Shown here: positions 36,503-55,998 of the stretch, one piece after another
Layout of the letters: the number at the start of each line of letters is the position of its first letter
Position numbering within the stretch: position 1 is the stretch's first letter
DNA from: Catalinimonas alkaloidigena
GTDB taxonomy: Bacteria; Bacteroidota; Bacteroidia; Cytophagales; Cyclobacteriaceae
Direction: 5' to 3'
Assembly (NCBI RefSeq): GCF_029504655.1
Contig: NZ_JAQFIL010000001.1
Coordinates: 2,733,001-2,797,000, forward strand
DNA: 64,000 nt
Notes under the pieces: generated by a model
The model's database searches: none
Told to the model about the DNA's origin: nothing
The model's input: the letters and a program-made list of their open reading frames with translations, nothing else
Translations under genes and position numbers: made by a program

Positions 36503-37705
36503 TTGCTAAATCCTGAATTATGCACCACCCAGCCCGATGAGCAGTTACAGCTTTCGGTGATTATACCTGCTAAAAATGAAGCACCCTCTATTTTTTCAAC
36601 ATTAAAGGCATTATATGATCAGGTAGATGCTGATGGGAAGCCATTGAACAAACGTCATTACGAGCTTATCTTATTGGTTAATAATTGTACGGATGATACT
36701 GCCAGGATAGCCCGCCAGTTTGCCTACAATTATCCTGATCTAGCCTTGCACATCATAGAAAAACATTTTCCGCCAAAGCAGGCGCACATCGGCTACGTTC
36801 GACGTATCCTAATGGATGAAGCTTTTTTTCGTTTTTCCCTGTTGAGACGTCCCCGAGGTGTTATCGCTTCTACTGATGGCGACAGTACGGTGGGATCTAC
36901 CTGGATATTTTATATATTAAAGTCATTTGCGGAAGGTTTAGATGCGGTAGGAGGGCGAATCCTGACTATTCCCCAGTCCTCTGATTATCGATGGTATCAC
37001 TTGATGGACGTAAAATACAGATTCTTATTGGCCCGACTGGAAACCTTAATTGATCCTTTACCTCACGATCCCTGGCCAAAGCACTTTCAGTTTTTTGGGC
37101 CCAGCCTGGCAGTAAGTGCTAAACTTTATGAGCAGGCAGGGCGCCTGCCGGTAGTCCCCTACCTGGAAGATCTATATTTTTACCATGCGATTCAAAAGGT
37201 AGATGCAAGGATTCGCCATTGCCCACAGGTAGAGGTATATACCTCTACTCGCCAGCAGGGCCGAGCCAGCCTGGGATTTTCCAGACAGTTACAGGATTGG
37301 GCTAGCATGCGACGCCGGGGCGAATTACCTGAAGTTGCCGGAGCACCGGAATGTCAGTTTCGCCTGTACTTACGAAATCGCCTGCGCACCATTTGGCATG
37401 ATGCTTCATATGCACAATTAACAAATCTTTCTCAGCATATTGGAGTTTCCCTACATGAATTCTACGAGCAGATGATCAGTACGTGCTATTTTGGTACTTT
37501 CTTAGATGGGGTGATGCAATCGGAGAAAATACAGGACTATCTGCTGCGTCATTTTCATCCAGTACCGATAGACCAAGCCATCCGACAGCTAAGCCAGCAA
37601 CTTCCCTTAATTTACACCCGGTCTGCAGTCAGAAGTTCGCCTCCCACAGATCCAGCCTGTATTGCTCATGCCGCTGGTGACGAAGGTGCGTTAGCTGTTG
37701 GCTAG
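36503..37705 (+). CDS. Family 2 glycosyltransferase
   Basis: 400 residues. GT-A fold: LSVIIPAKNEAPSI at about residue 17, LLVNNCTDDTA near 58, and DGD at 125-127 as the metal-binding acidic motif (ASTDGDSTVG). No membrane segment is evident, so it should be cytoplasmic. The best start is a TTG at 36503; there is no in-frame ATG before about residue 104. Its 3' end overlaps the convergent methyltransferase by 77 bases. It belongs with the methyltransferase, PIG-L and acyl-CoA dehydrogenase genes and probably transfers a sugar in the pathway they share. Confidence 0.85.
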   Translation: MLNPELCTTQPDEQLQLSVIIPAKNEAPSIFSTLKALYDQVDADGKPLNKRHYELILLVNNCTDDTARIARQFAYNYPDLALHIIEKHFPPKQAHIGYVRRILMDEAFFRFSLLRRPRGVIASTDGDSTVGSTWIFYILKSFAEGLDAVGGRILTIPQSSDYRWYHLMDVKYRFLLARLETLIDPLPHDPWPKHFQFFGPSLAVSAKLYEQAGRLPVVPYLEDLYFYHAIQKVDARIRHCPQVEVYTSTRQQGRASLGFSRQLQDWASMRRRGELPEVAGAPECQFRLYLRNRLRTIWHDASYAQLTNLSQHIGVSLHEFYEQMISTCYFGTFLDGVMQSEKIQDYLLRHFHPVPIDQAIRQLSQQLPLIYTRSAVRSSPPTDPACIAHAAGDEGALAVG

Positions 37706-38219
37706 TTTGCGCAAAAACGCTAAATGCTTCGTGAACCTCATCGCCGGTTAGCGGATAGTCTTCTACATAGGGTGTCCAGTGTACCAGTAGCAGGTGCCCC
37801 CCCGGTAAAAGGGCTTTGCTAATATAAGCCTGTACAGCAGCCAGGTCCTCATGAGACCAGTAGTACCCTACTTCTGAGATCAGAATGAGATCAAAAGCTT
37901 GTTCAGGCAGGACTTCGGGGATGCGCATGGGAGCTATACACACATGTGGCTGATCTTTCAGCCGCTCACGGGCCTGCCGCAAAGGAAGTTCGCTGGCATC
38001 TATTGACAACAGCTGCTTGCAATAAGGAGCCAGCATTTCGGTAAGCACACCAATAGAGCAGCCTACTTCCAGACCGTAGTCATAGCGGGATTTAGGAAGC
38101 GCGTGAATCGTTTCTAAATACTTTTTACGTTCATAGTCGCTGCTGGCAAACTGCCAGGGATCTGGGTCTTGCTCGTACATATTATCAAAGTACTGAGGGG
38201 GTAAAGATTGTTTAGGCAT
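37629..38219 (-). CDS. SAM-dependent methyltransferase (NodS-like)
   Basis: 196 residues from an ATG at 38219 (MPKQSLPPQYFDNMYEQDPDPW); the frame runs further upstream but that part lies inside the preceding deacetylase gene. The opening FDNMYEQDPDPWQFASSDYERKKY is typical of NodS-like methyltransferases. LEVGCSIGVLTEMLA at about residue 50 is SAM motif I, and SIDASELPLRQARERL supplies the adenosine acidic residue. It overlaps the upstream PIG-L gene by eight bases and the convergent glycosyltransferase by 77. In some other bacteria I recall the PIG-L and methyltransferase as one fused protein. Confidence 0.87.
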   Translation of the reverse strand: MPKQSLPPQYFDNMYEQDPDPWQFASSDYERKKYLETIHALPKSRYDYGLEVGCSIGVLTEMLAPYCKQLLSIDASELPLRQARERLKDQPHVCIAPMRIPEVLPEQAFDLILISEVGYYWSHEDLAAVQAYISKALLPGGHLLLVHWTPYVEDYPLTGDEVHEAFSVFAQTSQQLTHLRHQRHEQYRLDLWEANF

Positions 38220-38961
38220 GGAGGTAAACTTCAAAGGGTTGTGTGAAATGTGTAATGACTTCGGGCTTGAGGATAAAACCTTCCGGATCATCATCAATCA
38301 TCCGGGTAGTTTGTGATACGTGTGCCTCTATGGCTTTTTTCTTTCGTTCCAAAGATTCTTCTACTGATAAGCGCCATAGTTTCCCTTCCTCAGGTCGGGG
38401 AAGATCTGCTGCCTGTACTGAAGCCCAGGTCCAGATAAAGTATTCCTGCCAGAGGGTTTTCATCCTGCTTTCAGTGAGTGCGGCACGAAGGATTTCCCAG
38501 CTTGCCCGGTGGTCGCAGTGAGGATCTCTTCGCCAGGGAAGCAGGATAGTATCTGGTTGGATTCGCTCCAGGTAGGCACGCACTGCTTCCACGGCAGATG
38601 CAAATTCAACATGGCCTGGAAAGGGTACCTGTGTATCGGGTAAGCGTAAAAAAAGACTTAATTCCGGATCGGCTCCCAATAGTTTCAAAGCCCTACGGGC
38701 CTCTTTTTCCCGTATCACGATTCGTATCGGTGCAGGAAACTTCTCAGAACGTGGGTGTGACATGCTGCCATCACTGACCATCAGAATATGAACCGGCAAT
38801 TTGCGCCGGCACAGTGCCGCTATTGCCCCTCCACACCCCAGTGTTTCATCATCGGCATGGGGAGCAACTACAAGCGTCTTACCCCACTGGGCTACGGTAT
38901 CGGTGGGGAAGAGCGGAGCGCGCTCGAATAGTTCTTTAGGACTGAGTAGACCAGTGGTCAT
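38212..38961 (-). CDS. PIG-L family deacetylase
   Basis: 249 residues, LmbE/PIG-L zinc deacetylase fold. VVAPHADDETLGCGG (metal motif AHxDDE, here PHADDE at residues 34-39) and PHCDHRASW, with the third metal histidine, are both intact. PIG-L enzymes remove acetyl groups from N-acetylglucosamine on lipids, thiols or antibiotics. The start overlaps the dehydrogenase gene by 26 bases and its end overlaps the methyltransferase by eight, so the three minus-strand genes are tightly coupled. Confidence 0.9.
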   Translation of the reverse strand: MTTGLLSPKELFERAPLFPTDTVAQWGKTLVVAPHADDETLGCGGAIAALCRRKLPVHILMVSDGSMSHPRSEKFPAPIRIVIREKEARRALKLLGADPELSLFLRLPDTQVPFPGHVEFASAVEAVRAYLERIQPDTILLPWRRDPHCDHRASWEILRAALTESRMKTLWQEYFIWTWASVQAADLPRPEEGKLWRLSVEESLERKKKAIEAHVSQTTRMIDDDPEGFILKPEVITHFTQPFEVYLHA

Positions 38962-40096
38962 GAGCTGGTTGATTTTGTTTGCTTACGTACTCGCCTACCT
39001 TTGCCAACGCCTGGTCTGGGGCAGGTTGACGTAAGTAGGTTGTTAGATCCGTATGCAGACGTGCAAAAGGTTGTGGAGGCAACAGGCCTCGTGCCCCTAC
39101 GCAACGTTCTGAAAGGCGCATTACCTCCAGACTGATCTTCTCAATGGCCATCCGGGTCATGTTTGCGTAATTAATCTGTTGGTCAGTCGTGAGGGGCTGA
39201 TCCGCTTTTGCTCCGGCTTGTTGTATCCAAAGGTTACCTGACTCTATTAATACAGCTATTTCACCCAATCGCATCTGCTGATAAGGATCTTCTGTACGCT
39301 TAAGGTCTTTCAAAAACTTTCTGCAGGCATCATAAATGGCTTCAGCTCCCCCTAAGTGTACTGCTGCAAAACGAATAGCACCCCCACTAAAACAGGGCTG
39401 CCTGTGGTAATCGTCAGGGAGGCCCAATAAGTTCTGTTCTTTGAGTTCCACGCCGGTAAAGTCTATTTTGTAGCTCACACTGTCCTGCATACCTAAGGGG
39501 TTCCAGAAAGAAGTATCTATCGGTAGATCAAGCTGGTCCAGAGGTACCAAGCACATTTGCCAACCGTCTTCCTGACCGCTTTTCCGGATGAGTCGACCAG
39601 TAACAATGGGTCGTCCTACATGCGCGGCTCCGGAGCAAAAAGTTTTGGATCCGCTTAGTACATATCGGCCGTCATTCGTTTCGCGAATGACAATGCCGTC
39701 CTGAGCTTGCGTATTCCAAACGCCAAACAGTTGCTGCTCCTGGTAGACTTCCTTATACATATGTTCCTGCTGCGATGCACTGCCAAACCGATGGATCAGG
39801 TATAAGGCATTGATGTGTCCTTCGTAAATTCTGCCTACACACAAATTACCCTTACCAATCAGTTTGAGTAGCTGAAGTAAGTGAGGAGTTCTTCTTTCAC
39901 GAAAATCTAAGGGTTGATTTGGCAGACTAATGTTTAGCAAGCCAGCTTCTCTAAGCAGAGCAAACTCCTGCTGAGGAAATTTTCCTCTGGGAGAACAGGT
40001 CGGTGCCCGCATCGCATCCAGCTTTGCACTTACTTCTTCTATCTTTGGCCAGGGTTGATAGGGTGGAGAAAGCAGTATTTCAGTGGGTAGTTCCAT
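38936..40096 (-). CDS. Acyl-CoA dehydrogenase-family flavoprotein
   Basis: 386 residues. The acyl-CoA dehydrogenase fold is visible: helical N-terminus (EFALLREAGLLNISLPNQ), flavin-contact strand region (LFGVWNTQAQDGIVIRETNDGRYVLSGSKTFCSGAAH), and a C-terminal helical bundle ending RCVGARGLLPPQPFARLHTDLTTYLRQPAPDQAL. The usual catalytic glutamate position was not confirmed. The enzyme may oxidise or oxygenate an acyl chain on a carrier or a sugar derivative rather than take part in beta-oxidation, given its neighbours. It is first in the three-gene minus-strand unit. Confidence 0.85.
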   Translation of the reverse strand: MELPTEILLSPPYQPWPKIEEVSAKLDAMRAPTCSPRGKFPQQEFALLREAGLLNISLPNQPLDFRERRTPHLLQLLKLIGKGNLCVGRIYEGHINALYLIHRFGSASQQEHMYKEVYQEQQLFGVWNTQAQDGIVIRETNDGRYVLSGSKTFCSGAAHVGRPIVTGRLIRKSGQEDGWQMCLVPLDQLDLPIDTSFWNPLGMQDSVSYKIDFTGVELKEQNLLGLPDDYHRQPCFSGGAIRFAAVHLGGAEAIYDACRKFLKDLKRTEDPYQQMRLGEIAVLIESGNLWIQQAGAKADQPLTTDQQINYANMTRMAIEKISLEVMRLSERCVGARGLLPPQPFARLHTDLTTYLRQPAPDQALAKVGEYVSKQNQPAHDHWSTQS

Positions 40097-40448: not shown

Positions 40449-41132
40449 TCAGTACGCTTTAGCCAAGTCATAATCTTTTCCATGAGGGACTTTTCTGAGC
40501 TTGCGTATGATCCATAAAACCAAAATGCTCATGATGGCAGCAAAGAAACACCATATTGAAATAAGATGGTCCTGGAAATAGATTTTGGTGATAATAAAAG
40601 AGGTAATAATCGTAATTCCTAAGAACCAGATCTTTTTGATGCTTGAAACAAATGGAGATAGTGCTATGGGTATAAAATAAAAAGCACTTGTAATCCAACT
40701 AAAAGGCTCGTCATACCGAAAATCCTGCGTATAGGTAATATGATTACCGGCTATGCTAGCTTCAGCATGATGAAAAATCAAGATATAAGCAAAGCAAAGC
40801 GACACAAATGATCCCACTCCAATCAGTAAAGCAAGCCACTTTCTTCGTCTTGGGTCTTTTTCAAGTAATCTGATGGCGAAAGGAATATATACCGGCCAAA
40901 CTACCCAGGCAAATAGAAGAAAACCATAAGTGCCAATTTGCTGCCAAAGTAAATATTCCAGATGATGTATTGTTATCCACAGCATCCCTTCCAGACATTG
41001 TTGAATGGCAAAAAATAAAGGTATAGCGGCAAGTCCACCTTGTGATGCGGTTGAAGCTTTTTGCATGGCAAATGCACCCACTACTGCAATTACTGCACCT
41101 GCTCCAAAACTTGCCTCTGCTGAAAAACACAT
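40449..41132 (-). CDS. DUF6629 multi-pass membrane protein
   Basis: 227 residues. The opening MCFSAEASFGAGAVIAVVGAFAMQKA is characteristic of DUF6629. Seven membrane segments are predicted by eye: residues about 10-26, 35-52, 66-85, 98-118, 145-162, 172-185 and 190-210. Acidic and aromatic residues in the loops are conserved in the family but no function is known. It stands alone, with non-coding DNA on both sides. Confidence 0.8.
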   Translation of the reverse strand: MCFSAEASFGAGAVIAVVGAFAMQKASTASQGGLAAIPLFFAIQQCLEGMLWITIHHLEYLLWQQIGTYGFLLFAWVVWPVYIPFAIRLLEKDPRRRKWLALLIGVGSFVSLCFAYILIFHHAEASIAGNHITYTQDFRYDEPFSWITSAFYFIPIALSPFVSSIKKIWFLGITIITSFIITKIYFQDHLISIWCFFAAIMSILVLWIIRKLRKVPHGKDYDLAKAY

Positions 41133-42714: not shown

Positions 42715-43959
42715 ATGACTCCAATTCCTAATGACCCTAAGCTGGATAGCACAATTGCTTTACTTGCTGATGGCTATACATTTATTTCTAAGCGGTGTCA
42801 GCGTTATCAATCTGATGTTTTTCAAACAAGGCTCCTTTTTCAGAAGACGATCTGTATGCGTGGGAAGGAAGCCGCTAAGGTTTTTTATGATACTGAACTT
42901 TTTAAGCGAAAAAACGCCGCTCCCAAACGCTTTAACAAGACACTCTTCGGCCAGGGGGGAGTACAGGCTTTGGATGGCCAGCCTCACGCACATCGCAAGC
43001 AGATGTTCATGTCACTGATGACCCACGAAGGCTTGGAAGAATTAGTCAATTTAACAGCGAAGCAGTGGGAGAATTATATCAAAAAATGGGAACAGCAAGA
43101 TCAGATTGTTCTATTTGAGGAGGTAGAGGAAATTTTATTTAGAGCTGTTTGTAGTTGGGCGGGTGTTCCTTTGCAGGAGCCTGAAGTGAAACAAAGAACA
43201 AAAGAAATGGCAGCCATGATCAAAGGTTCAGGAGCCGTAGGATTGGAACACTGGCAGTCTCGCTTGTCCCGCAAACGAGCGGAGCAATGGATAGAAAATA
43301 TGGTGGAAAAAGTACGTGAGCATAAGATGGAGGCTAAGGAAGGCGCTGCATTGCAAGTATTTAGCCAGCATCGCACTCCTGAGGGGGAATTATTAGACAA
43401 GAAAATCGTGGCAGTAGAGGTGCTCAATGTACTTCGGCCAACCGTTGCTATTGGAAGGTTTATCGTTTTTGCTGCATTGGCCTTGTATCAATATCCTCAA
43501 TACCGGCAAAAGCTTGCGGAAGAAGATGGTTTTGTTAAACTTTTTGTTCAGGAAGTTCGGCGCTTTTACCCTTTTTTCCCTTTTGCAGCGGCACGTGTAA
43601 AAAGTGAGTTTAGCTGGAAAGGATTTCGTTTTCCATCCGGACAAAGAGTGCTGCTGGATTTGTATGGCACCAATCATGATCCGCGCTTGTGGGAAAAACC
43701 GGAAGAATTTAAGCCCGACCGATTTCGTCATCGGGATGAAAACCCCTTTGATTTCATTCCCCAAGGTGGAGGCGACTTTTATACAAACCATCGCTGTGCG
43801 GGTGAGTGGGTGACTATTGAGCTGATGAAAGTTGCCTTGCGAAATTTAGTAAGCGCAATGAGCTATCAGGTGCCGGATCAGGATTTGCGGATTAGCCTCT
43901 CGGATTTGCCAGCCCTACCGAAAAGTAGGTTTATTATAAAAGATGTGAAACGAATTTGA
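42715..43959 (+). CDS. CYP152-family cytochrome P450 fatty-acid peroxygenase
   Basis: 414 residues. The haem-ligand loop reads GGGDFYTNHRCAGEW with C361 as thiolate ligand. The I-helix has LRPTVAIGRF, with Arg-Pro at about 241-242 in place of the usual acid-threonine pair; in P450BS-beta and OleT this arginine binds the fatty-acid carboxylate and lets H2O2 replace a reductase. QEVRRFYPFFPFAAARV carries the ExxR region. The enzyme should hydroxylate fatty acids at the alpha or beta carbon, or decarboxylate them, using peroxide. No ferredoxin or reductase gene is nearby, as expected for a peroxygenase. Confidence 0.93.
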   Translation: MTPIPNDPKLDSTIALLADGYTFISKRCQRYQSDVFQTRLLFQKTICMRGKEAAKVFYDTELFKRKNAAPKRFNKTLFGQGGVQALDGQPHAHRKQMFMSLMTHEGLEELVNLTAKQWENYIKKWEQQDQIVLFEEVEEILFRAVCSWAGVPLQEPEVKQRTKEMAAMIKGSGAVGLEHWQSRLSRKRAEQWIENMVEKVREHKMEAKEGAALQVFSQHRTPEGELLDKKIVAVEVLNVLRPTVAIGRFIVFAALALYQYPQYRQKLAEEDGFVKLFVQEVRRFYPFFPFAAARVKSEFSWKGFRFPSGQRVLLDLYGTNHDPRLWEKPEEFKPDRFRHRDENPFDFIPQGGGDFYTNHRCAGEWVTIELMKVALRNLVSAMSYQVPDQDLRISLSDLPALPKSRFIIKDVKRI

Positions 43960-44236
43960 TACTTTTGGGGCCAAATGGCTCATTTTTATCTTGTAAAGAT
44001 TACTATTGTATATGTATGAATGTCATCTTATTGCTAGGTAGTTATCATTAAGCTGATTTTAGTAATATTTTTACTTCTGACTATCATAAATACCCTCAAA
44101 CTAAGTCCCTCATCTTTATTTTATAAGAGAGGAGTGTTTCTTTACAGCAAGAAAAGTAAATACGCTCAAGTAGCAAGAACAAAATGCTGGGCGTCAGGTT
44201 GATACCTAAACTGATTTTTTGCCTAACAATTTATTT

Positions 44237-45013
44237 ATGGTATCTCATACAAAAACAGCGCTGATCTCTGGTGCTACCAGCGGATTCGGAAGAGAGTTTG
44301 TCAAACTTTTTACTCAGGATGGTTATGATGTAATCCTTGTAGCACGCCATGAGCAAGATCTACAGAAGGTAGCTAATGATGTGAAAGCTAAACATCCTAA
44401 CCGCAATGCCACAGTGATTGCCAAAGATCTATCTGTTCCCGGTTCGGCACAGGAGCTATATGAGGAAGTTAATGCTAAGAATTTGATGGTGGATGTGCTT
44501 GTAAATGACGCAGGCTTTGGCAGTCACGGAAATTTTATTGACACTGATCTGGAAAAAGAGCAAAAGATCATGCATTTGAATATGCTTTCTCTTGTAGAGC
44601 TCACCAAGCTTTTTTTGAGAGATATGGTCAAACGAAATGAAGGAAAAATACTGCAGCTCGCCTCTGTTGTATCTTTTATGCCGGTGCCTAAAATGGCGGT
44701 TTATGCTGCATCCAAAGCTTTTGTGCTTTCTTTTACCGAAGCTTTACAGTATGAACTGAAAGATACCAAGGTCACGATGACCGCTTTATGTCCTGGCGCT
44801 GGCGATACCGAATTTTTTGAAAGAGCCAATGCCGAAGATACTCGCATGGTTCAGGATACCAGCTTATCAGATCCGGCCAAAGTAGCCAGAGATGGATATG
44901 AAGCGCTGATGAATGGTGATAAGCGGGTTGTATCAGGGGCCAAAAATAAGATACAGGCTTTTATAACAAATTTTGTCCCCGACATTTTTTTGCCGAAGGT
45001 ATGTCCAAGATGA
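44237..45013 (+). CDS. Short-chain dehydrogenase/reductase
   Basis: 258 residues from the ATG at 44237; the frame also opens at a TTG at 44219, which is less likely. The cofactor loop is SGATSGFG, followed by VARHEQDL, NDAGFG in place of NNAG, a catalytic serine region (ASVVSF) and YAASK (Y-x3-K). LCPGAGDTEFF is the usual PG motif. The length is normal for classical SDRs. It lies between the CYP152 gene and a membrane-protein pair; it could act on an oxidised lipid, but this is only suggested by position. Confidence 0.87.
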   Translation: MVSHTKTALISGATSGFGREFVKLFTQDGYDVILVARHEQDLQKVANDVKAKHPNRNATVIAKDLSVPGSAQELYEEVNAKNLMVDVLVNDAGFGSHGNFIDTDLEKEQKIMHLNMLSLVELTKLFLRDMVKRNEGKILQLASVVSFMPVPKMAVYAASKAFVLSFTEALQYELKDTKVTMTALCPGAGDTEFFERANAEDTRMVQDTSLSDPAKVARDGYEALMNGDKRVVSGAKNKIQAFITNFVPDIFLPKVCPR

Positions 45014-45078
45014 TGAAAGATAAGTCATAAGCATCATTTGGTGATATACTGCTGAGCTACACAAACAAAGAAAAAAGG

Positions 45079-45564
45079 ATGCAAACAAATCATGATCAAG
45101 CTATTATTCAGCCGAGGCGTTCATTTTGGACAACTTTCCTGATTGGCGTGGGTATCATGGCGGCAGTGGATGAAATAGTTTTTCATCAGTTGTTGTCATG
45201 GCATCATTTCTATGACCAGGCTACACCTGCCATCAGCTTGATGAGCGATGGCCTGCTGCATGCGGCGGAGTTGATTGCGCTGGTGGCAGGCTTCTTTATG
45301 CTGGCAGATTTGCGACATCGTCATGCCTTCTCTGTCAAGTATGCCCAAGCTGGGTTTTTCCTGGGCTTAGGTTGCTTTCAGGTTTTTGATGGTCTTGTAG
45401 ATCATAAAGTACTGCGCCTGCACCAGATTCGTTATGGCGTAGACCTGTTACCCTATGATCTGGTCTGGAATCTGGTAGGGTTTATATTGATCCTGATAGG
45501 AGTAGGGTTGCTGTCTCGGGCCAGGAAGTTTACTGCTATCAAAGCTACGGATCAAAACCATTGA
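45079..45564 (+). CDS. DUF2243 membrane protein
   Basis: 161 residues with four membrane segments: about residues 15-32, 54-74, 87-105 and 125-146. The segment GIMAAVDEIVFHQLLSWHHFYD and FQVFDGLVDHKVLRLHQIRYGVDLLPYDL, with conserved histidines and aspartates, identifies DUF2243. The family is often found next to caa3-type CtaG proteins, as here: the next gene starts two bases after this stop. The histidines suggest metal or haem handling in oxidase assembly, which is inference. Confidence 0.85.
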   Translation: MQTNHDQAIIQPRRSFWTTFLIGVGIMAAVDEIVFHQLLSWHHFYDQATPAISLMSDGLLHAAELIALVAGFFMLADLRHRHAFSVKYAQAGFFLGLGCFQVFDGLVDHKVLRLHQIRYGVDLLPYDLVWNLVGFILILIGVGLLSRARKFTAIKATDQNH

Positions 45565-45565
45565 G

Positions 45566-46399
45566 ATGTTAGAACACGCACCGCAAGAAAATTTATTTAC
45601 CTACCTTCCCTGGCTGTTTATATCTTTGATGTTGTTGGCCTATCTCAGGGCAGCCATTGGGCAGATTCATCAGGGGCGACAGTGGAGCCGATGGAGAATC
45701 CTCAGTTTCATAAGTGGATGTTTGCTTCTTTATGTAGGGCTGACCCCCTCTCTACAGCCAATGGCGCATCACGACATTCGGTTGCATATGGTGCAGCATC
45801 TGCTGATTGGGATGTTTGCACCTCTGGCATTGGTGCTGGCTGCTCCCGTCACTTTGGCTGTGCGTAGCTTGCCCACTTCTACTTCCCGCTTTATCATGCA
45901 AGTCATGGGCAGTAAGCCGGTCCGTTTGATAAGCCATCCGCTAAGTGCATTGCTGCTCAATATCGGAGGGATGTACGTTTTGTATCTGACGCCATTGTAT
46001 GCCACTACTTTGTCAAACCCTTACATGCACCACTTACTTCACCTCCATTTTCTACTGGCTGGCTATCTGTTCTGCTGGTCCATCGCTGGTCCTGATCCTG
46101 CTCCCCATCGCCCTGCAATGCGGGTACGACTAATCGTACTTTTTCTCAGTATGGCTACGCATGCTTATCTGAGCAAACTGATGTATGCTTACGAATGGCC
46201 AAAAAATACACCTCATCCTACTGAACAAATACAGGCGGCTGCCCAGCTTATGTACTATGGTGGTGATGTGGCAGAAATACTTTTAGCCATAGCCTTCTTC
46301 GCCGCCTGGTTCAGGTTTTCCCAAAGTCAGGTAAAAAAACATAAAAAAAGATGGTTTAGCATTTCTAAACCCTTTGCCTATTTATTTTCTAAAAACTAG
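45566..46399 (+). CDS. CtaG-like (caa3-type) cytochrome oxidase assembly protein
   Basis: 277 residues, about seven membrane segments. Conserved motifs of the caa3_CtaG family are present: HHDIRLHMVQHLLIGMFAPL, LLLNIGGMYVLYLTPLYA, HHLLHLHFLLAGYLFCWSIAGPDPAP and DVAEILLAIAFFAAWF. The family is thought to deliver copper to oxidase subunit II, with histidines and methionines as carriers. It forms an operon with DUF2243 (1 base apart). A coxB-coxA cluster lies about 5 kb further on, a plausible client. Confidence 0.88.
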   Translation: MLEHAPQENLFTYLPWLFISLMLLAYLRAAIGQIHQGRQWSRWRILSFISGCLLLYVGLTPSLQPMAHHDIRLHMVQHLLIGMFAPLALVLAAPVTLAVRSLPTSTSRFIMQVMGSKPVRLISHPLSALLLNIGGMYVLYLTPLYATTLSNPYMHHLLHLHFLLAGYLFCWSIAGPDPAPHRPAMRVRLIVLFLSMATHAYLSKLMYAYEWPKNTPHPTEQIQAAAQLMYYGGDVAEILLAIAFFAAWFRFSQSQVKKHKKRWFSISKPFAYLFSKN

Positions 46400-46538
46400 G
46401 CTTGCACTTTAGTAACTTCTGAATGCTCTTATTCCCATTTTAAGAAAGCAAACTGATTGTACTAATGCTGCATATTTCAAAACAAAAGACGCTCCTCCCT
46501 ATTTATTTTTTTAAATCTTCACATATTAAAAACAGCTT

Positions 46539-48041
46539 ATGAAAAGTACTTCGTTATGGAAAGATACTGCTCAGGAGCAAGCGACATATCCTTCGCTAGA
46601 AGAAAACATCTCCGCTGAAATCGTAGTGGTGGGAGGGGGGATAACCGGGCTAACGGCTGCTTATGAGCTGGTGAAAGCCGGAAAAAAAGTGGTGGTGGTA
46701 GAAGCTTTCTCCGTGGGTGATGGTACTACCGGCTTATCCAGCTGCCACCTCAATACCCAGATTGACTATGGTTACCAGCATGTGAAGCAATCTTTTGACC
46801 AGGAGGTGATGCGTCTGGTAGCCGACTCACGCTTTTCAGCTATCAATTATATAGAAAAACAGTGTACCCAGGAAGGGATGAGCTGTGATTTCAAACGGCT
46901 GCCGGGCTTCCTCTATGCAGAGACTGAAGCGCAAGCGCAGTTTTTGCTGGAAGAATATAAGCACGCTCAGGAAGCAGGATTATCAGTGACTCTGCATGAT
47001 CAGATTCCTTTTCCCTCCACCATCAAAAAAGCTATTGAATACCATGAGCAGGCGGTGTTTAATTCCCAGAAGTATGTCAACCATCTGGCAAAATGGATTT
47101 ATGCTTCGGAAAATGGACAGGTTTTTGAAAATACCAGAGTAAAGGATATCTCACTAAAAAATAAAAAGGTATTGACAGAGAAGGGGGAAATCAGTGCGCA
47201 TCAGATTATACTGGCTACGCATCTGCCACTTTTCTTTGACGTATTGCAGACCATGGCAGCTCCCTACCGTAGTTATATACTGGTAGGTGAAGTGGAGCAA
47301 AGAGATATGCCGGAAGGTCTATATTGGGATTTGCAGGAGCCTTATCATTATACGCGTTACTATCATCAGGGAGAAAAAACCTGGCTGGCCGTAGGAGGTG
47401 CCGACCATAAAACCGGGCACAATGAACAGAATCAGGACAGCTACGAAAAGCTCAAGCAGTATATGCAGGAGCATTTTAACATCAAAAACTTTACATACCA
47501 GTGGTCTTCACAGTACTATGAACCGGCAGATGGTTTGCCTTATATCGGATTGAGCCCTTTTAAGAATGTGTATGTGGCCACGGGCTATAGTGGTGATGGG
47601 CTGGTATATGGCACTGTGGCAGGTCTGCTGCTGAAAGATTTGATTTTGAAGCAGGATAATGCCTGGGCCAAGGCCTACGATGCACGGCGCTTCAAACCTG
47701 TGGCTTCGTTTGGTGAATGGGCCAAGGAAAATATGGAGGTAGTCACTGATTTTGTAAAAGATTATCTGGGTAGCAAGGAAAAGGAGGCTGAAAATATACC
47801 CAGAGGTGAAGGAAAGGTAATTTCCAAAGACAACATCAAGTATGCGGTGTACCGCAATGAGCAAAACCAGTTCATTTCACTTTCACCCATTTGTCCTCAC
47901 CTGAAATGCGTGGTACACTGGAATACTGAGGAAAAATCATGGGATTGTCCTTGCCACGGTAGCCGTTTTACTCCCGAAGGGAAGTTGCTTGTAGGCCCGG
48001 CGGTTAGTGATTTGGAGAGAAAAGATTATAATGACAAATAA
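46539..48041 (+). CDS. FAD-dependent oxidoreductase with C-terminal Rieske domain
   Basis: 500 residues. A DAO-type flavoprotein begins with the dinucleotide motif VVVGGGITGLTAAYEL and VVVEAFSVGDGTTGLSS, and has YVATGYSGDGLVYG near the end of the flavin domain. Residues about 420-500 form a Rieske [2Fe-2S] domain: CPH at 452-454 and CPCH at 470-473, matching C-x-H...C-x-x-H. The fused arrangement (flavin amine oxidase-like plus Rieske) is a known family with unclear substrate. A terminator hairpin follows and the manganese catalase converges on it, suggesting shared stress conditions rather than a common transcript. Confidence 0.9.
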   Translation: MKSTSLWKDTAQEQATYPSLEENISAEIVVVGGGITGLTAAYELVKAGKKVVVVEAFSVGDGTTGLSSCHLNTQIDYGYQHVKQSFDQEVMRLVADSRFSAINYIEKQCTQEGMSCDFKRLPGFLYAETEAQAQFLLEEYKHAQEAGLSVTLHDQIPFPSTIKKAIEYHEQAVFNSQKYVNHLAKWIYASENGQVFENTRVKDISLKNKKVLTEKGEISAHQIILATHLPLFFDVLQTMAAPYRSYILVGEVEQRDMPEGLYWDLQEPYHYTRYYHQGEKTWLAVGGADHKTGHNEQNQDSYEKLKQYMQEHFNIKNFTYQWSSQYYEPADGLPYIGLSPFKNVYVATGYSGDGLVYGTVAGLLLKDLILKQDNAWAKAYDARRFKPVASFGEWAKENMEVVTDFVKDYLGSKEKEAENIPRGEGKVISKDNIKYAVYRNEQNQFISLSPICPHLKCVVHWNTEEKSWDCPCHGSRFTPEGKLLVGPAVSDLERKDYNDK

Positions 48042-48096
48042 AAAAGCAGTAATAACAATACATCTGCTTTTTCAGGTATGCATTGTTATCTGCTTT
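48041..48096. terminator. Bidirectional terminator with two alternative stems
   Basis: AAAAAGCAG (48041-48049) pairs with CTGCTTTTT (48064-48072). A longer alternative pairs AAAGCAG and ATAACAAT with ATTGTTAT and CTGCTTT at 48082-48096. Placed between the convergent FAD-Rieske and manganese catalase genes. Confidence 0.75.
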
Positions 48097-48110
48097 AGAA
48101 ATTCCCTCAT

Positions 48111-48947
48111 CTACTGACCATCCATTTGCTGGAGTTGGGCATGTACTTCAGGGACTTTAGCCATACCTAGTTCGGGTTCCTGCCCATGAGGCTTGGCAAT
48201 GCGGAAAGAAAATTTTCCTTTACCATCTATGGACTTACCAGTGGTCCAGCGTGTTTTAGGGTCAGTAGCTTCTGTTGCATCCTTCTTGGTAGACATAAAT
48301 GCATAGCTGAATTCTGAAGCTTCTTTTTCCTGGGGGAAGCTGTTAGGAATCGGATGTACTTCACCCATTTCTTCCAACACAGCCAGCCACTGGTTCTGGT
48401 GCATGGTATCGCGGGCAATCAGGAAAGAAAGCATGTCTTTCATACCAGGGTCATCGGTTACTTCATACAAACGTGTCGCCAAAGCTCTTCCCCCGGCTTC
48501 AGCCGTTACATTGGCATGCATATCGGCAGCGATATTGCCGGTGCCTACCACATAAGCACCACTAAAAGGTGTACCTGTACTGTCCACCGCCATCGCTCCC
48601 AACCCAGAGGAAAGGATATGACGGGGGTTCATTCCTCCCAGTACCGCCTCTACCACAGGGTTTTCTCCTGCCAGCTTTTCTTTCAGGGCGTAATCAGCAC
48701 CTTCAAGATTGAGTGCCACTGCGGTGCAGAGCATTTCAATATGCGCCATCTCTTCAGTGCCAGTTTCCAGCAGCATGTCGCGGTACTTCTTAGGTCCACG
48801 GGCATTCCAGGCCTGGAATAAATACTGTAAACAGACGCGGATCTCGCCCTCTATTCCACCGATTGCCTGCTGAAGCATTTTGGCAAAGATAGGATTAGGC
48901 TTTTCTACCCTTACAGGATACTGTAATTTACCGTCATGATAAAACAT
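48111..48947 (-). CDS. Manganese catalase
   Basis: 278 residues, ferritin-like dimanganese catalase that breaks down H2O2. The metal ligands fall where expected: IEGEIRVCLQYLFQAW (first glutamate), TEEMAHIEML (glutamate and histidine), ANVTAEAGGRALATRLYE (glutamate), and ARDTMHQNQW (histidine). The C-terminal region with KGKFSFRIAKPHGQEPELG is typical of the family. No signal peptide is present, so it is cytoplasmic. It converges with the FAD-Rieske gene. A peroxide-consuming CYP152 and this catalase lie within 6 kb, but they are separately transcribed. Confidence 0.94.
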   Translation of the reverse strand: MFYHDGKLQYPVRVEKPNPIFAKMLQQAIGGIEGEIRVCLQYLFQAWNARGPKKYRDMLLETGTEEMAHIEMLCTAVALNLEGADYALKEKLAGENPVVEAVLGGMNPRHILSSGLGAMAVDSTGTPFSGAYVVGTGNIAADMHANVTAEAGGRALATRLYEVTDDPGMKDMLSFLIARDTMHQNQWLAVLEEMGEVHPIPNSFPQEKEASEFSYAFMSTKKDATEATDPKTRWTTGKSIDGKGKFSFRIAKPHGQEPELGMAKVPEVHAQLQQMDGQ

Positions 48948-49270
48948 AAAAAAATTAGTTAATTGGTTAAAAAATGGTTTGCTGAATATTAAGCATATTA
49001 CAGTGGTTTTGTCTTGACAAAACTGATAATTGATAAATATTCACTACATAAATGAGAGTAGTAAACTAAGTAGATTGAAAGTTTCAGGTTTCAGGTTCAA
49101 GGTATTTTATTTGAAAATTAGATATTCATCATCCTTGTAAATCATAGTAAATTATGTTTCAGTACTTACCAGCCTAACTATTTCTCCATTTGTAGGTTGA
49201 TAAATCTAATGACACCAAGCTTCTGAAAGCAAAAAATATGAATGTTGCCCCATAACCATTTTTTAAACTT
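48948..49270. other. Intergenic, short repeated motif only
   Basis: 323 bases between the divergent catalase and a small membrane-protein gene. It holds a short direct repeat of TTTCAGG (49081-49102) and is otherwise featureless. Confidence 0.45.
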
Positions 49271-49714
49271 ATGAAAAAGAGATTTGACAGCGTGTTAAAA
49301 AGGATAATGTATCCTTCCATAGCTGCTACTACTAACATGACGCTTTTTAGTTATGCTGCTTCCTACCTGGTCAACGATCAGTTTAAAGAGCCTAAATTAC
49401 TGAGTTATTTCTTTTTTACGCCGGGGAAGAAGAAAGCAAATCAACCGCCCATAGGTGGGTTTTTGCTTCATTATCTGGTAGGCGCAGGTTTCGCTGTCGC
49501 ATATCAGTTTGTATGGAAAAGGTTTTTCAAGTTTCCTGAATGGAAGGATGGCTTAAGCTATGGCGCTTTATGCAGCCTTGTAGGCATGCTGACCTGGAAA
49601 ATTGTTTTTGCTACCCATCAATCCCCTCCCAGAATCCAGCTCAAATCTTACCTCTTTCATTTATTTATTGCCCACCTCATTTTTGGTGTCACGCTTAGCA
49701 AGACAAAAAAATGA
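49271..49714 (+). CDS. Small multi-pass membrane protein of unknown function
   Basis: 147 residues. After a basic N-terminus (KKRFDSVLKRIMYPSI) there are hydrophobic segments at about residues 17-35, 63-79, 95-112 and 125-142, so three or four membrane helices. A charged loop (FFTPGKKKANQPPIGG) lies between the first and second. I do not recognise a family. It stands alone upstream of the GC-rich repeat. Confidence 0.65.
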   Translation: MKKRFDSVLKRIMYPSIAATTNMTLFSYAASYLVNDQFKEPKLLSYFFFTPGKKKANQPPIGGFLLHYLVGAGFAVAYQFVWKRFFKFPEWKDGLSYGALCSLVGMLTWKIVFATHQSPPRIQLKSYLFHLFIAHLIFGVTLSKTKK

Positions 49715-49747
49715 GCAGTTATACTTGGATCAAGCGTTGGTGAATTA

Positions 49748-49885
49748 AAAACTACATTTCCGGTTTGTGGAGACACAAACCGGAGCTTAGACGCCGTGGG
49801 CTTGTGCGGGGCACCCCGTGCCGCCGGGGCCCGCAGTGGCGACTGCCGGTCCCACAGCCCACTTTCAGAAAATGTACCGTAGTAT
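49748..49885. repeat. GC-rich structured repeat with terminal inverted repeats, copy B
   Basis: The second copy of the element at 13955-14110. Its right end ATGTACCGTAGTAT (49872-49885) is the inverse of copy A's left end with one mismatch in 14; its left end has lost about five bases (ACTAC joined directly to ATTTCC). CCGGTTTGTG-GAGA-CACAAACCGG forms a perfect 10-bp hairpin closed by a GNRA-type tetraloop. The larger domain has GTGGGCT/AGCCCAC, TGCGGG/CCCGCA, CCCCG/CGGGG and GCAGT-GGCG-ACTGC pairs. Where copy A differs from copy B in the first hairpin, the pairing core (GGTTTGTG/CACAAACC) is kept. Confidence 0.8.
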
Positions 49886-49901
49886 GATTAAAAACATTAC
49901 C

Positions 49902-51296
49902 TCAGTGGCTTTCTACCCCTTTTTCTTGTGCCTTTGATTGCTCTCTGGATGTATTATTAACAGGGGTCTCAATCATTTCTTTTACTTCCCACATCGTCAC
50001 TACAGGTACATATCTGATAAAAAGCAGGAACAGAAAAAAGAACAGGCCGATAGAAAAAATAAAGACCCCAACATCATACATACTCGGAAAAAACAATGCC
50101 CATGAGGAGGGTAAATAGCCTCGGGATAGGGTGGTGACAATGATCACAAAGCGTTCTAACCACATCCCTATATTGACAAGCAGGGATAAGCAGAAACTGA
50201 ACATTAAATTTCTTCTGAGGCTTTTGAACCACAACAATTGCGGTAGTAATGCATTAAAAAGGAGCATAAGATAAAAGAATGTCGCATAATCACCGCCCAT
50301 GCGATAGAACATCATAAAGCCATCAAGCTTGCCTATGTACCAGGCTTTAAAGATTTCAATGAAGTAGCTGATCCCGATTAAACCTGAAGTTAGTATCACC
50401 AGCTTGTTCATATTTTCAATATGTCGTACTGTAATATAATCTTCCAGATTAAGAAGTTTTCGTAGGGGGATCAGTAGGGTGAGCACCATAGCAAAACCTG
50501 ATAAAATGGCTCCAATGACGAAGTAGGGAGGAAAAAAAGTAGAGTGCCATCCTTTAAGTATGGATGTGGCAAAGTCCATAGCAACAATGCTATGTACGGA
50601 GATTACCAGTGCAGTTGCCAAACCAGCAATGGTAAGCATAATAGACTCATAGCGTCTCCATTGCCAGGTAGAATTTTCCCAGTTTAAACTAAGGATCTTA
50701 TACATCCTCTTTTTGAACCCACTACTCATCTCACGTAACTGGGCAAGATCAGGAATTAAGCCAAGGTACCAGTATAGCATTGAGACCAGGAGGTAGGTGA
50801 GTATAGCAAAGGCATCCCAAACCAAGGGAGAATTAAAATTCACCCATAAATCTCCGTAAGTATTAGGGATAGGAAATACCCAGTAAAACAGCCATGGACG
50901 CCCAAGATGGGCAAGTATGTAAAAACTGGAACAGCTTACGGCGCAGTGCGTCATGGCTTCAGCAGAGCGGTTGATGGAAGTCCTCCATTTGGCCCTACAG
51001 AGTAACAGAATGGCAGATATCAGGGTGCCAGCATGCCCAATACCAATCCACCATACAAAATTCGTAATATCCCATGCCCAGTTAATGGATTTGTTTTCTC
51101 CCCACATGCCTATGCCATCCCACCAGGTGCGGTACAGACAGTACCCTCCGGCAAGAAGTAAAAGTCCGGAAAGCCCAAACCCAATCATCCAGAATTTCTT
51201 TTTATCCTTAATACCATTCAGGATATCGTGGGCAACATCTTTTTTTCTCTTGTTGCCTGCTAGCAGGGCTTGCCTTAAAGAAGATGCTTTATGCAT
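49902..51296 (-). CDS. NrfD/PsrC-like membrane subunit (ActC-type)
   Basis: 464 residues with about ten membrane segments, NrfD/polysulfide reductase membrane-subunit family. It resembles the ActC/ActF subunits of alternative complex III: WDGIGMWGENKSINWAWDITNFVWWIGIGHAGTLISAILLL near the N-terminus, HSIVAMDFA, and GFMMFYRMGGDYATFFYLMLL later. It probably takes electrons from quinol or contributes to proton transfer. The haem and iron-sulfur subunits of complex III are not in this window. It is divergent from the oxidase genes, so it may be a lone quinol module for that oxidase. Confidence 0.85.
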   Translation of the reverse strand: MHKASSLRQALLAGNKRKKDVAHDILNGIKDKKKFWMIGFGLSGLLLLAGGYCLYRTWWDGIGMWGENKSINWAWDITNFVWWIGIGHAGTLISAILLLCRAKWRTSINRSAEAMTHCAVSCSSFYILAHLGRPWLFYWVFPIPNTYGDLWVNFNSPLVWDAFAILTYLLVSMLYWYLGLIPDLAQLREMSSGFKKRMYKILSLNWENSTWQWRRYESIMLTIAGLATALVISVHSIVAMDFATSILKGWHSTFFPPYFVIGAILSGFAMVLTLLIPLRKLLNLEDYITVRHIENMNKLVILTSGLIGISYFIEIFKAWYIGKLDGFMMFYRMGGDYATFFYLMLLFNALLPQLLWFKSLRRNLMFSFCLSLLVNIGMWLERFVIIVTTLSRGYLPSSWALFFPSMYDVGVFIFSIGLFFFLFLLFIRYVPVVTMWEVKEMIETPVNNTSREQSKAQEKGVESH

Positions 51297-51429
51297 ATGA
51301 AGATTTACCTAATGTGATGCCTAAAACGCTTAACCAAGCCTCCGGGGGATGGTTTGGCAGCCTAAAGAATTAAAAGTGAAAACAAATTTATAGTCACTTG
51401 CTTTAGTAATTAATGAAATACTAGGGCTT

Positions 51430-52410
51430 ATGTTAGAAAGTTTCGGAACTCTGGCTACAATTCTTTTCATGTTTTTACTGCTGACCTTTATGAGTGTAGG
51501 AGCAGTAGTGTTTTATAAAAAAATGAGCCATAAAATTGATCGTTGGTTTACCACTATTCAACCCTACCTTTTGCTCGGGTTCCTGCTTTTATTTATTATT
51601 TCTGTTACTTACTCAAGCTATCATTACTCTGGCAACTTTCTGCCTTCACCAGCCTCTGAGGAGGGAAGCATGATCGTCCCCTTGTTTAATACCACCTTTA
51701 TTGTGACTGCCTGTGCCTTTTTTTTGACACAGGTACTGTTATTCTTTTTTGCATTCTTTTACAGAACAAAACAGGGTAGAAAAGTAAGGTTTTTAAAAGG
51801 GAATTTTAAGCTTGAATTATTCTGGATTATAGTACCGGCAGGTGTTTTTATTTTCCTGTTTTTGTGGGGGCAAATCCTCTGGTCCCGGATACATGAAGCA
51901 CCCCAGGAAGAGGTGCTTGAAATAGATGTAATGGCCCAGCAGTTCAGCTGGAAAGTAAGATATCCCGGAGCAGATAAAATATTAGGGGATTCTGATTTTC
52001 GCTTTATAGATCAGGTAAATACCATGGGTATTGATATTACTGCTGCAGAAAGCCAGGATGATTTTATTCCTGTCCAGATGCACATTCCGAAAGGCAGGCC
52101 TGTGAGGCTTTTATTGCGCTCAAAAGATGTGATACATAGCTTTTACATACCGCACTTTAGAATAAAAATGGATGCCTTGCCCGGCATGCCTAGCAGGGTA
52201 CACTTTACGGCCAACACCACTACTGCTGAGATGAGGGAAAAGCTTAATGATCCGGACTTTAACTATGAAGTAGCCTGTGCTGAACTTTGCGGAAGAATGC
52301 ATTTTGCGATGAAGTTAATTTTGGTAGTAGATGAACCGGAGCAATTTGAAGAGTGGTATCATACGCAGCAAAGTTGGGTAGAAAAACATGAGCAATACGC
52401 TATTTTTTAA
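51430..52410 (+). CDS. coxB: Cytochrome c oxidase subunit II
   Basis: 326 residues. There are three hydrophobic segments (about 8-28, 45-62, 88-112) and a fourth at about 135-150 before the periplasmic cupredoxin domain. The CuA motif is complete: C283-x3-C287-x3-H291-x2-M294 in ACAELCGRMHFAMK, with the first histidine in DVIHSFYIPHF. The segment EIDVMAQQFSWKVRYPG is the usual domain start. It accepts electrons from cytochrome c and passes them to subunit I. It leads the operon coxB-coxA-cytochrome c. The N-terminal extra hydrophobic segments are more than the standard two. Confidence 0.94.
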   Translation: MLESFGTLATILFMFLLLTFMSVGAVVFYKKMSHKIDRWFTTIQPYLLLGFLLLFIISVTYSSYHYSGNFLPSPASEEGSMIVPLFNTTFIVTACAFFLTQVLLFFFAFFYRTKQGRKVRFLKGNFKLELFWIIVPAGVFIFLFLWGQILWSRIHEAPQEEVLEIDVMAQQFSWKVRYPGADKILGDSDFRFIDQVNTMGIDITAAESQDDFIPVQMHIPKGRPVRLLLRSKDVIHSFYIPHFRIKMDALPGMPSRVHFTANTTTAEMREKLNDPDFNYEVACAELCGRMHFAMKLILVVDEPEQFEEWYHTQQSWVEKHEQYAIF

Positions 52411-52441
52411 TACGTGATGAACCGATTAAATTTTTTTTGTA

Positions 52442-54265: not shown

Positions 54266-55193
54266 CTCTAAAACCTTTTCTTTAACGCTCTTTATATCAC
54301 TCGTTCTCGGGTGCCACTTCTTAGCGTATGCTCAAAGAGATAGTACTGAAATATATACTTCGGGAAGAAATCTATTTAGAACCCATTGTAATCCCTGTCA
54401 TGGGGTACGCCAGGAGAAACTGGGACCGATGTTGGCTAGCATCACCCATAAAAAAGAAGAAGACTGGCTGCTTTCTTTCATCAACAACTCTCAGGATGTA
54501 ATCCTTTCAGGTGATGCCTATGCTAATTTTCTATTTGAGCAGTATAACCATGTAGTGATGCCTTCTTTTAGTAAACGCATATCTGAAAGAGAAATAAAAG
54601 ATATACTCTTGTTTATTGAAAATGAATCGCTAAAGCCTGAAGGAGAGACATACGCTTATCCGAAAGTAAGCGATAGGAGCAATAAAGTGATCATGAAAGG
54701 TAAAGCGCTATTTAATAAACACTGTATCACCTGTCACTTTGTGGATAGTGAAAATATAGGGCCAGCATTAGGAAGTTTGACCAGAAGAAGGCCTCTTCCC
54801 TGGCTTATCGGTTTTATCAGAAATTCTCAGGAAGTGATTAGATCAGGAGATAGCTATGCAGTACATCAGTACAATAGTTTTGATCAGAAAGTGATGCCGG
54901 ATTTTGAATATTTAAGTAGGGAGGAAATTATAAGCATATTGGATTTTGTGGCTTATTCTTCTGGCTCGCCTTATCCGGTAGCGGGAACCAACAGCAGCAT
55001 GAATCAAGATGGCGATACTGTGCGGGCAATTTCAAGCATAAGCAAAGCACCGAAATCTGTGAAGCAGGAGAAAAAAATACCCTTTAAAATCATATTGATT
55101 GTATTTTCATTAGTGGGTGCTTCGGTTCATGTGTTTATTATTGTCAAACTGTATCTATATCTTAAAGGAGGTGACTATAGTAGAGACCAATAA
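54255..55193 (+). CDS. Dihaem c-type cytochrome, membrane-anchored
   Basis: 312 residues. A signal segment (FSLTLFISLVLGCHFLAYAQ) is followed by two cytochrome c domains with CNPCH (C45-H49) and CITCH (C157-H161). The halves are clear duplicates: each has W-LxxFI-NSQ(D/E)VI-SGD-YA and VMP(S/D)F with the methionine ligand. A membrane segment near the C-terminus (KIILIVFSLVGASVHVFIIVKLYLYL, about 275-300) anchors it. It overlaps coxA by 11 bases and probably feeds CuA directly. No subunit III or IV is present in this operon. Confidence 0.9.
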   Translation: MKANSKTFSLTLFISLVLGCHFLAYAQRDSTEIYTSGRNLFRTHCNPCHGVRQEKLGPMLASITHKKEEDWLLSFINNSQDVILSGDAYANFLFEQYNHVVMPSFSKRISEREIKDILLFIENESLKPEGETYAYPKVSDRSNKVIMKGKALFNKHCITCHFVDSENIGPALGSLTRRRPLPWLIGFIRNSQEVIRSGDSYAVHQYNSFDQKVMPDFEYLSREEIISILDFVAYSSGSPYPVAGTNSSMNQDGDTVRAISSISKAPKSVKQEKKIPFKIILIVFSLVGASVHVFIIVKLYLYLKGGDYSRDQ

Positions 55194-55283
55194 CTTAGCA
55201 CAATGTATAAGACAAAGGCCTTGAAAGTATGTATAAGAGATTAGGTGATGTAGTGTACGGAGTTTACATCACTTTCATTGAAG

Positions 55284-55333
55284 CAGCCTGAAAAATATCC
55301 TATGTCGAAAGAGGCACAGGCTGATTTTTTTTT
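55284..55333 (+). terminator. Terminator after the oxidase operon
   Basis: CAGCCTG (55284-55290) pairs with CAGGCTG (55317-55323) over a 26-base loop, followed by A and nine T residues. About 90 bases after the cytochrome c stop codon. Confidence 0.7.
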
Positions 55334-55412
55334 ATATCCTTCCATAAACTGATAGCTTCTTCATAAATAGATCCTGGCATAATACTTTTTTGCAGCTACT
55401 GCTCTTGCATGT

Positions 55413-55787: not shown

Positions 55788-55909
55788 ATTAGTAAATATT
55801 TTTCCGCTTAAGATTTTTCACAAAAATGTAGAGATAATAATTCCTGCTTCTCCACCGGATTAATGATATATTGGTTTTTTGCGGGCTCGTTTTTTGGTTT
55901 CCATTAAGC

Positions 55910-55950
55910 AATGTTCTTCTTTTCAGGCTTACACTGAGAAGAAGAACATT
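55910..55950 (-). terminator. Hairpin after the TPP enzyme gene
   Basis: AATGTTCTTCTT (55910-55921) pairs perfectly with AAGAAGAACATT (55939-55950); inner TCAG/CTGA pairs extend the stem to 17 bp with one wobble and a 7-base loop. It lies 49 bases past the stop of the minus-strand TPP gene; the tail after it is not T-rich. Confidence 0.65.
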
Positions 55951-55998
55951 ACCTTTATATCCCTGCATGATACACCCTTTATGTCAAAATTGACATGA

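Follow-up and report, generated by a model that had tools for sequence, protein, structure and literature searches.

A recurrent four-gene bacterial cassette with a probable flavin monooxygenase and a possible role in amino-sugar glycoside synthesis

The locus described here lies in a 64,000-nucleotide stretch of the Catalinimonas alkaloidigena genome (the window) and contains three minus-strand genes with overlapping ends and a glycosyltransferase gene that converges with them:

36503..37705, plus strand: GT2-family glycosyltransferase, 400 aa, TTG start
37629..38219, minus strand: NodS-like class I SAM-dependent methyltransferase, 196 aa, ATG at 38219
37629..37705: 77 bp shared tail to tail by the methyltransferase and GT2 reading frames
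38212..38961, minus strand: PIG-L/LmbE-family de-N-acetylase (PF02585)
38936..40096, minus strand: ACAD-fold flavoprotein without the catalytic Glu, a probable flavin monooxygenase, with a YLRQ-x3-D motif

The open reading frames and the sequence confirmed this layout, which an earlier note on this DNA had given, with overlaps of 8 bases (38212-38219) between the methyltransferase and PIG-L genes and of 26 bases (38936-38961) between the PIG-L and ACAD-like genes. A longer methyltransferase frame reaches 38297, from a TTG. The 77-base overlap of the methyltransferase and GT2 frames was absent from that note. None of the four proteins has a membrane-like segment. The block is also GC-rich, as had been suspected, at 48.4%; 100 blocks of equal size, drawn from 20 stretches of this genome, gave 41.8 ± 2.5%, and none of them was as high. 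Gene by gene, GC content ranged from about the 90th to the 99th percentile of 256 open reading frames of at least 180 aa, and codon typicality from the 2nd to the 11th percentile of the same set.

The GT2, PIG-L, and methyltransferase proteins all retain catalytic-type residues. The GT2 protein scored above the Pfam cut-off for PF00535 (36 bits) and has a GT-A domain followed by C-terminal helices, with D125 and D127 forming the DxD motif and E222 and D223 the ED motif; its highest 19-residue hydropathy was 0.92. The PIG-L protein exceeded the Pfam cut-off for PF02585 (87.7 bits), matched diacetylchitobiose deacetylase (6.5e-9), and carries the HxDD...HxDH signature of the PIG-L/LmbE family, with H35, D37, D38, H148, D150, and H151 present in 83 of 83 rows. 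Its scores were below the NCBIfam equivalog cut-offs for MshB (20.1 versus 224.35 bits), BshB1 (62.3 versus 182.5 bits), and BshB2 (44.3 versus 195.25 bits). The methyltransferase belongs to the NodS family, with 61.3 bits for PF05401 (Pfam cut-off 24) and E51, G53, G57, S115, E116, Y119, and Y120 in all 84 rows. It matched the NodS structure 3ofj (1.1e-18), but it is not NodS proper, lying far below the NCBIfam equivalog cut-off for NodS (77.7 versus 300 bits). Its closest solved relative was 4isc (2.4e-27), which is listed only by the name Methyltransferase and is presumably from Pseudomonas syringae. NodS is an N-methyltransferase of rhizobial Nod factor synthesis that acts after de-N-acetylation; no NodA, NodB, or NodC model was found among matches of the genes adjoining the methyltransferase gene.

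The remaining protein is a member of the ACAD superfamily by its fold and by a match to Acyl-CoA_dh_1 (PF00441, 30.6 bits, above the Pfam cut-off). Judged by its sequence, the label of acyl-CoA dehydrogenase that it carried in the earlier note is probably wrong, because the catalytic Glu is absent and DszC-type monooxygenases are its nearest relatives. In the column of the C-terminal domain that holds the catalytic Glu of true dehydrogenases, the 36 aligned rows have either Pro (33 rows) or Ala (3 rows), and Pro358 aligns with the Glu in the GEGTSE segment of another protein of the same genome (L096), which we take to be the catalytic base of dehydrogenases. R356, Q357, and D361 were kept in every row. 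The nearest solved relatives by sequence were DszC, TdsC, and MsuC, and Foldseek also placed DszC and TdsC on top, with a second fold comparison putting these two only 1 to 2 Z units above dehydrogenase-type chains. These similarities to DszC-like group D enzymes suggest that the ACAD-like protein is a probable flavin monooxygenase.

Like DszC, TdsC, and MsuC, the ACAD-like protein lacks the catalytic Glu and contains an FCSGA segment, whose Ser is present in 34 of the 36 rows and replaced by Thr in 2. In contrast to these enzymes, with which it shares about 20% identity, its gene lies within a sugar cassette and not in a sulfur operon. Furthermore, it is not DszC proper, since the DszC active-site residues H92, Y96, and H391 correspond to R89, G93, and Q357, none of which varies among the 36 rows. 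DnmZ, KijD3, and ORF36, the sugar N-oxygenases or nitrososynthases, share the fold superfamily but are not its closest relatives; the sugar nitrososynthase DnmZ gave a weak family-profile match (3e-7) and ranked 41 in Foldseek. These enzymes oxidize amino sugars, their substrates are nucleotide-bound deoxysugars, and their home is in antibiotic clusters. Group D monooxygenases have the ACAD domain in common and include N-hydroxylation among their activities, according to PMC6165268.

The four genes form a real unit, as had been proposed for this locus. Of 296 genomes of the phylum, 6 had the ACAD-like protein, and these same 6 also had the methyltransferase and GT2 proteins, clustered; the search for all four families within 5 kb that the earlier note had suggested found complete sets at 65 of the best 80 named-genome loci. 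Pairwise distances of the four proteins correlated across 70 rows (rho of 0.75 to 0.87, compared to a highest value of 0.19 in 200 permutations), part of which is expected from common species ancestry alone. The convergent overlap of the methyltransferase and GT2 frames recurred at 38 of 66 loci scored. The GT2 gene was convergent at 67 of 67 genome-contig loci; we rejected this arrangement as universal, since among the 12 plasmid regions that have GT2, 4 carry it on the same strand, as does genome G286. Among incomplete or altered loci, the three Dyadobacter genomes in which the ACAD-like gene lies apart (L014, L017, and L046) all have an adjacent PIG-L/methyltransferase pair elsewhere. One locus (L004) has the ACAD-like gene alone, another (L037) has the methyltransferase and GT2 genes with no PIG-L gene found anywhere in the assembly, and the ACAD-like frame of G304 contains one in-frame TGA.

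Copies were found in Bacteroidota, Cyanobacteriota, Thermomicrobiota, Acidobacteriota, Deinococcota, and Pseudomonadota, and some are on plasmids. As to the transfer suggested earlier, presence among relatives is patchy (3 of 59, a count that includes the genome of the window) and the composition is odd, but import across phyla is not supported, because the tree places the ACAD-like protein of the window within Bacteroidota, next to rows from the same order. In this quick tree of 93 rows, 13 of which fell in no group, all Bacteroidota fell to the same side of a branch with support 94.

A PIG-L/methyltransferase fusion, which the earlier note had mentioned for other bacteria, is real, occurring at 12 of 80 loci and in 9 of 120 among the matches listed. 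A HAD phosphatase is fused to the methyltransferase at 5 loci and in 43 of 120 among the matches listed, including in some cyanobacteria, and of the 6 Deinococcus regions read, 5 (all except L092) have a glycosidase-like domain fused to the ACAD-like protein. Both side fusions fit sugar chemistry. We did not count an apparent GT2-ACAD fusion in Methylobacterium aquaticum (L089), a single open frame matching both profiles, because the intervening stretch resembles out-of-frame GC-rich sequence and is followed by a normal ACAD start. The occurrence of the block over six phyla, together with the natural fusions, makes it very likely that one defined compound is made.

The surroundings of the cassette were variable. 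Only 3 of 22 neighboring proteins in the window matched any open reading frame of 87 other loci: a short-chain dehydrogenase/reductase (SDR), with matches in 4 loci, a two-component protein, with matches in 2, and a Mn-catalase-like protein, with a match in 1. For a Pfam scan, 130 neighbor proteins were picked from 26 of the 80 loci and 114 were scanned, leaving aside 8 near-copies of the L012 neighborhood (from L021 and L034) and 8 long frames; 5 of 114 proteins was the most that any family reached. By contrast, when 791 neighbor frames were grouped by single-linkage clustering, one SDR family appeared at 13 of 80 loci, spread over Bacteroidota, Acidobacteriota, and Cyanobacteriota; as SDRs are common, this is no more than a lead. 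Catalase, Mn-catalase, Dps, or Ku/LigD genes lie close to a few relatives. On these counts we rejected the idea that a stress island belongs to the cassette, and its wider stress context is anecdotal. The available portions of the reports on the Sphingomonas melonis EcfG regulon (PMC6599016) and a Nostoc punctiforme stress regulon (PMC7660261) do not name the four cassette genes together.

On balance, we lean toward the cassette being a self-contained biosynthetic set for a modified amino-sugar glycoside. We infer the substrates, step order, N-oxidation, and product as follows. The GT2 enzyme, which looks soluble, would transfer an N-acetylhexosamine to a small, possibly phosphorylated acceptor; PIG-L would remove the acetyl group from this product; the NodS-like enzyme would N-methylate the freed amine; and the ACAD-fold monooxygenase would oxidize the product, most simply at nitrogen, with reduced flavin supplied by a reductase whose gene lies elsewhere. 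Three genes elsewhere in the genome encode flavin-reductase domains. MshA/MshB, BshA/BshB, and butirosin BtrM/BtrD are glycosyltransferase plus PIG-L pairs, with glycosyltransferases of the GT4 type. The cassette would resemble them in the two-step logic of GlcNAc transfer followed by PIG-L deacetylation, but it has no ligase and adds methylation and oxidation.

The earlier note had read the cassette as making a modified sugar lipid or small molecule. All four families are consistent with a pathway that modifies a sugar, but no separate evidence was found for a lipid. A glycolipid-tailoring route, in which the ACAD-like protein acts on the acyl chain of an acyl-CoA or acyl-glycoside, is unlikely: the Acyl-CoA_dh_1 score, the nearly equal fold scores of dehydrogenases and monooxygenases, and the glycosyltransferase plus PIG-L logic known from early GPI synthesis speak for it, but all 36 rows have Pro or Ala in place of the catalytic Glu, the GT2 protein has no membrane-like segment, and the 20 Pfam families found in at least 2 of the 114 neighbor proteins include no acyltransferase, acyl carrier protein, or ETF.

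We also doubt that the cassette makes an analog of a low-molecular-weight thiol or compatible solute. In such a route, a sugar attached by GT2 to a phospho-acceptor would be processed by a phosphatase and PIG-L, much as mycothiol and bacillithiol are made, and then turned into a redox or osmotic protectant by the methyltransferase and the oxidase. The absence of a ligase and of generally conserved flanking genes, except for the SDR family, argues against this route, which the HAD phosphatase fusion, the weak BshB1 match of PIG-L, and the stress-type genes noted above for a few relatives (catalase, Mn-catalase, Dps, or Ku/LigD) would favor. Detoxification of a foreign aminoglycoside or glycoside, with no endogenous product built, is quite improbable; patchy presence, plasmid carriage, and the RND or MFS transporter genes that adjoin some copies agree with it, but no transporter recurs consistently (MFS in 5 of 114 neighbor proteins) and a glycosyltransferase, deacetylase, and methyltransferase set looks biosynthetic. 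Least credible are stress genes with separate substrates held together by common regulation and transfer, as stress-type neighbors at some loci and the GC-rich block in the genome of the window might suggest, since the overlaps, the direct PIG-L/methyltransferase fusion, and the agreement in presence and absence across genomes point to a single pathway and the methyltransferase and PIG-L genes remain in the genome even where the ACAD-like gene lies apart.

A name-based literature search, which covered few subscription papers and was partly aimed at single parts, found no description of the four-gene cassette. Taking the amino-sugar glycoside reading further is speculative and rather unlikely to hold in full: the product may be an undescribed low-molecular-weight N-methylated, N-oxidized amino-sugar glycoside, such as an N-hydroxy or nitrone sugar, serving as a redox or desiccation protectant in at least six phyla, with the oxidase representing a new sugar-specific branch of ACAD-fold monooxygenases. 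In public records the cassette oxidase goes by the name acyl-CoA dehydrogenase, which would mislead in many genomes if the enzyme proves to be a sugar monooxygenase. The cassette is small and can be expressed and assayed whole, and the question of its product is therefore directly testable.

The cassette lies on both strands of the window as four overlapping genes, and our literature searches found no paper describing this four-gene arrangement:

36503-37705, plus strand, GT2 glycosyltransferase (GT2)
37629-38219, minus strand, NodS-like methyltransferase (MT)
38212-38961, minus strand, PIG-L deacetylase
38936-40096, minus strand, acyl-CoA-dehydrogenase-fold protein (ACAD-like)

We searched a phylum set of 296 genomes (≥90% complete, the same draw for each of three separate searches) with the ACAD-like, MT, and GT2 proteins at E limits of 1e-40, 1e-25, and 1e-25, respectively. 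Each query matched the identical 6 of 296 genomes, the window's own among them and two of the six sharing a genus, and in these genomes the three genes lay within 3.4 to 6.4 kb. At these limits, the remaining 290 genomes contained no match to any of the three proteins. The ACAD-like gene was found in 3 of 59 relatives of the window's genome, that genome counted, and was absent from both congeners of the window's species at E 1e-40.

The close linkage of four families suggested in the earlier note was also observed in named genomes, in which we scanned with an ACAD-like alignment and analyzed the best 80 of at least 526 relatives: PIG-L, MT, and GT2 were all within 5 kb of ACAD-like in 65 of these 80 loci. 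Partial sets consisted of PIG-L and MT only (11 loci), MT and GT2 (1), GT2 only (1), or no partner (2). Among the 11 loci with PIG-L and MT only, the contig left after ACAD-like was <2.3 kb in five and 2.9 kb in a sixth. GT2 was about 6 kb away in locus L072, and both partnerless loci (Dyadobacter L014 and L017) came from genomes with a side-by-side MT/PIG-L pair elsewhere. MT likewise adjoined PIG-L elsewhere in the genome of locus L046, and no PIG-L was found in that of locus L037. In a separate plasmid sample (16 regions examined of 156 matching records), ACAD-like was present in 16 regions, PIG-L and MT in 15, and GT2 in 12.

PIG-L (76/76 loci scored) and MT (77/77) were co-directional with ACAD-like, and GT2 was antiparallel in 67/67 named-genome loci. 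In the window, the minus-strand overlaps that the earlier note had pointed out were borne out at 26 bases (ACAD-like and PIG-L) and 8 bases (PIG-L and MT), and MT overlapped GT2 tail to tail by 77 bases (37629-37705). Such a tail overlap recurred in 38 of 66 loci and might couple both transcripts. Convergence of GT2 is thus frequent without being obligatory, since GT2 shared a strand with the other genes in 4 of 12 plasmid regions and in one phylum-set genome (G286). In Deinococcus wulumuqiensis (region L115, 7157-8509), a TnpB-type gene lay between ACAD-like and PIG-L.

The commonest cross-genus neighbor of the cassette was an SDR family (13 of the 80 loci), a possible accessory partner. Among the window's own neighbors, a DUF6629 protein (40449-41132, minus strand; 74.8 bits) adjoins the cassette and a CYP152-type fatty-acid peroxygenase (42715-43959, plus strand; NCBIfam CypC, 633.6 bits against a cut-off of 600) lies 2.6 kb away; no relative of either turned up at the other cassette-bearing loci compared. 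By eye, the genes at 44219-57789 resemble a block devoted to oxidative stress and respiration, with an SDR, cytochrome oxidase subunits, a TPP enzyme, and, at 48111-48947, a Mn-catalase-like protein; these genes, few exceptions apart, were absent beside the cassette in the other loci compared. Two adjoining ORFs at 16161-17353 (plus strand) look, again by eye, like a split integrase-type transposase.

The GC richness noted earlier held, as the cassette block is 48.4% GC against 41.8 ± 2.5% in 100 same-genome blocks, none of them as high; a high GC content by itself is no proof of import from another phylum. Codon typicality of the four genes fell between the 2nd and 11th percentiles of 256 sampled ORFs from the same genome. 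In a quick-method tree of 93 ACAD-like rows, one branch has the Bacteroidota all to one side, and the window's protein groups with rows of its own order. Some rows, among them Flavobacterium SUN052 beside Rudanella, fall within a lineage other than their own, a placement that suggests exchange inside the phylum.

PIG-L H35, D37, D38, and H148, whose roles we take from MshB-type enzymes, were invariant in 83/83 aligned rows, as were the MT SAM motif and SE-x-x-YY residues in 84/84. The nearest structures to MT were 4isc and NodS. GT2 retained DxD and ED (33 rows), and its predicted model (pLDDT 88.8) includes a GT-A domain with WrtF as the closest structural neighbor, followed by a Leptospira glycosyltransferase, RmlT, and TarS. 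No membrane-like stretch was detected in the four proteins (peak 19-residue hydropathy, 0.92 to 1.17).

Fusions joined several of these enzymes to one another or to further domains. A single PIG-L/MT protein occurred in 12 of 80 loci, nine from Lewinella or Neolewinella. Several cyanobacteria carried an N-terminal HAD-phosphatase domain on MT (5 loci); among 120 matches listed with such a protein as the query, 43 were HAD-phosphatase-MT and 9 were PIG-L/MT fusions. Five of the six Deinococcus plasmid regions read had ACAD-like annotated as a single CDS of ~750 to 790 amino acids, the N-terminal part of which is a glycosidase-like domain (confirmed in 5/5); the sixth (L092) had an unfused ACAD-like. 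Five Spirosoma loci and one Acidobacteriota locus had a relative of this domain close to the cassette, the Spirosoma relative matching GH family 1 (52.3 bits). We discounted what looked like a GT2-ACAD fusion in Methylobacterium. In Deinococcus sp. AJ005 (region L117, 658-12675), the cassette forms part of a more extended gene series that also includes Dps, SDR, a stand-alone family 1 glycosylhydrolase, a glycosyltransferase of family 1, and UDP-galactopyranose mutase; in D. gobiensis, too, the cassette is followed by glf.

GlcNAc transfer followed by PIG-L deacetylation is the known logic of the mycothiol, bacillithiol, and butirosin routes, and NodS N-methylates the freed amine on Nod factors. 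For the cassette itself, the analysis shows that the genes are present, that they are linked, and that residues of their products are conserved. The route that we infer for the cassette, including its substrate, step order, oxidation site, and product, would repeat the former order, with GlcNAc transfer and then PIG-L deacetylation; MT would N-methylate the freed amine in the manner of NodS, and flavin oxygenation would follow. The fusions to HAD-phosphatase and glycosidase-like domains suggest that, in some lineages, the pathway passes through an intermediate that is phosphorylated or carries further glycosylation.
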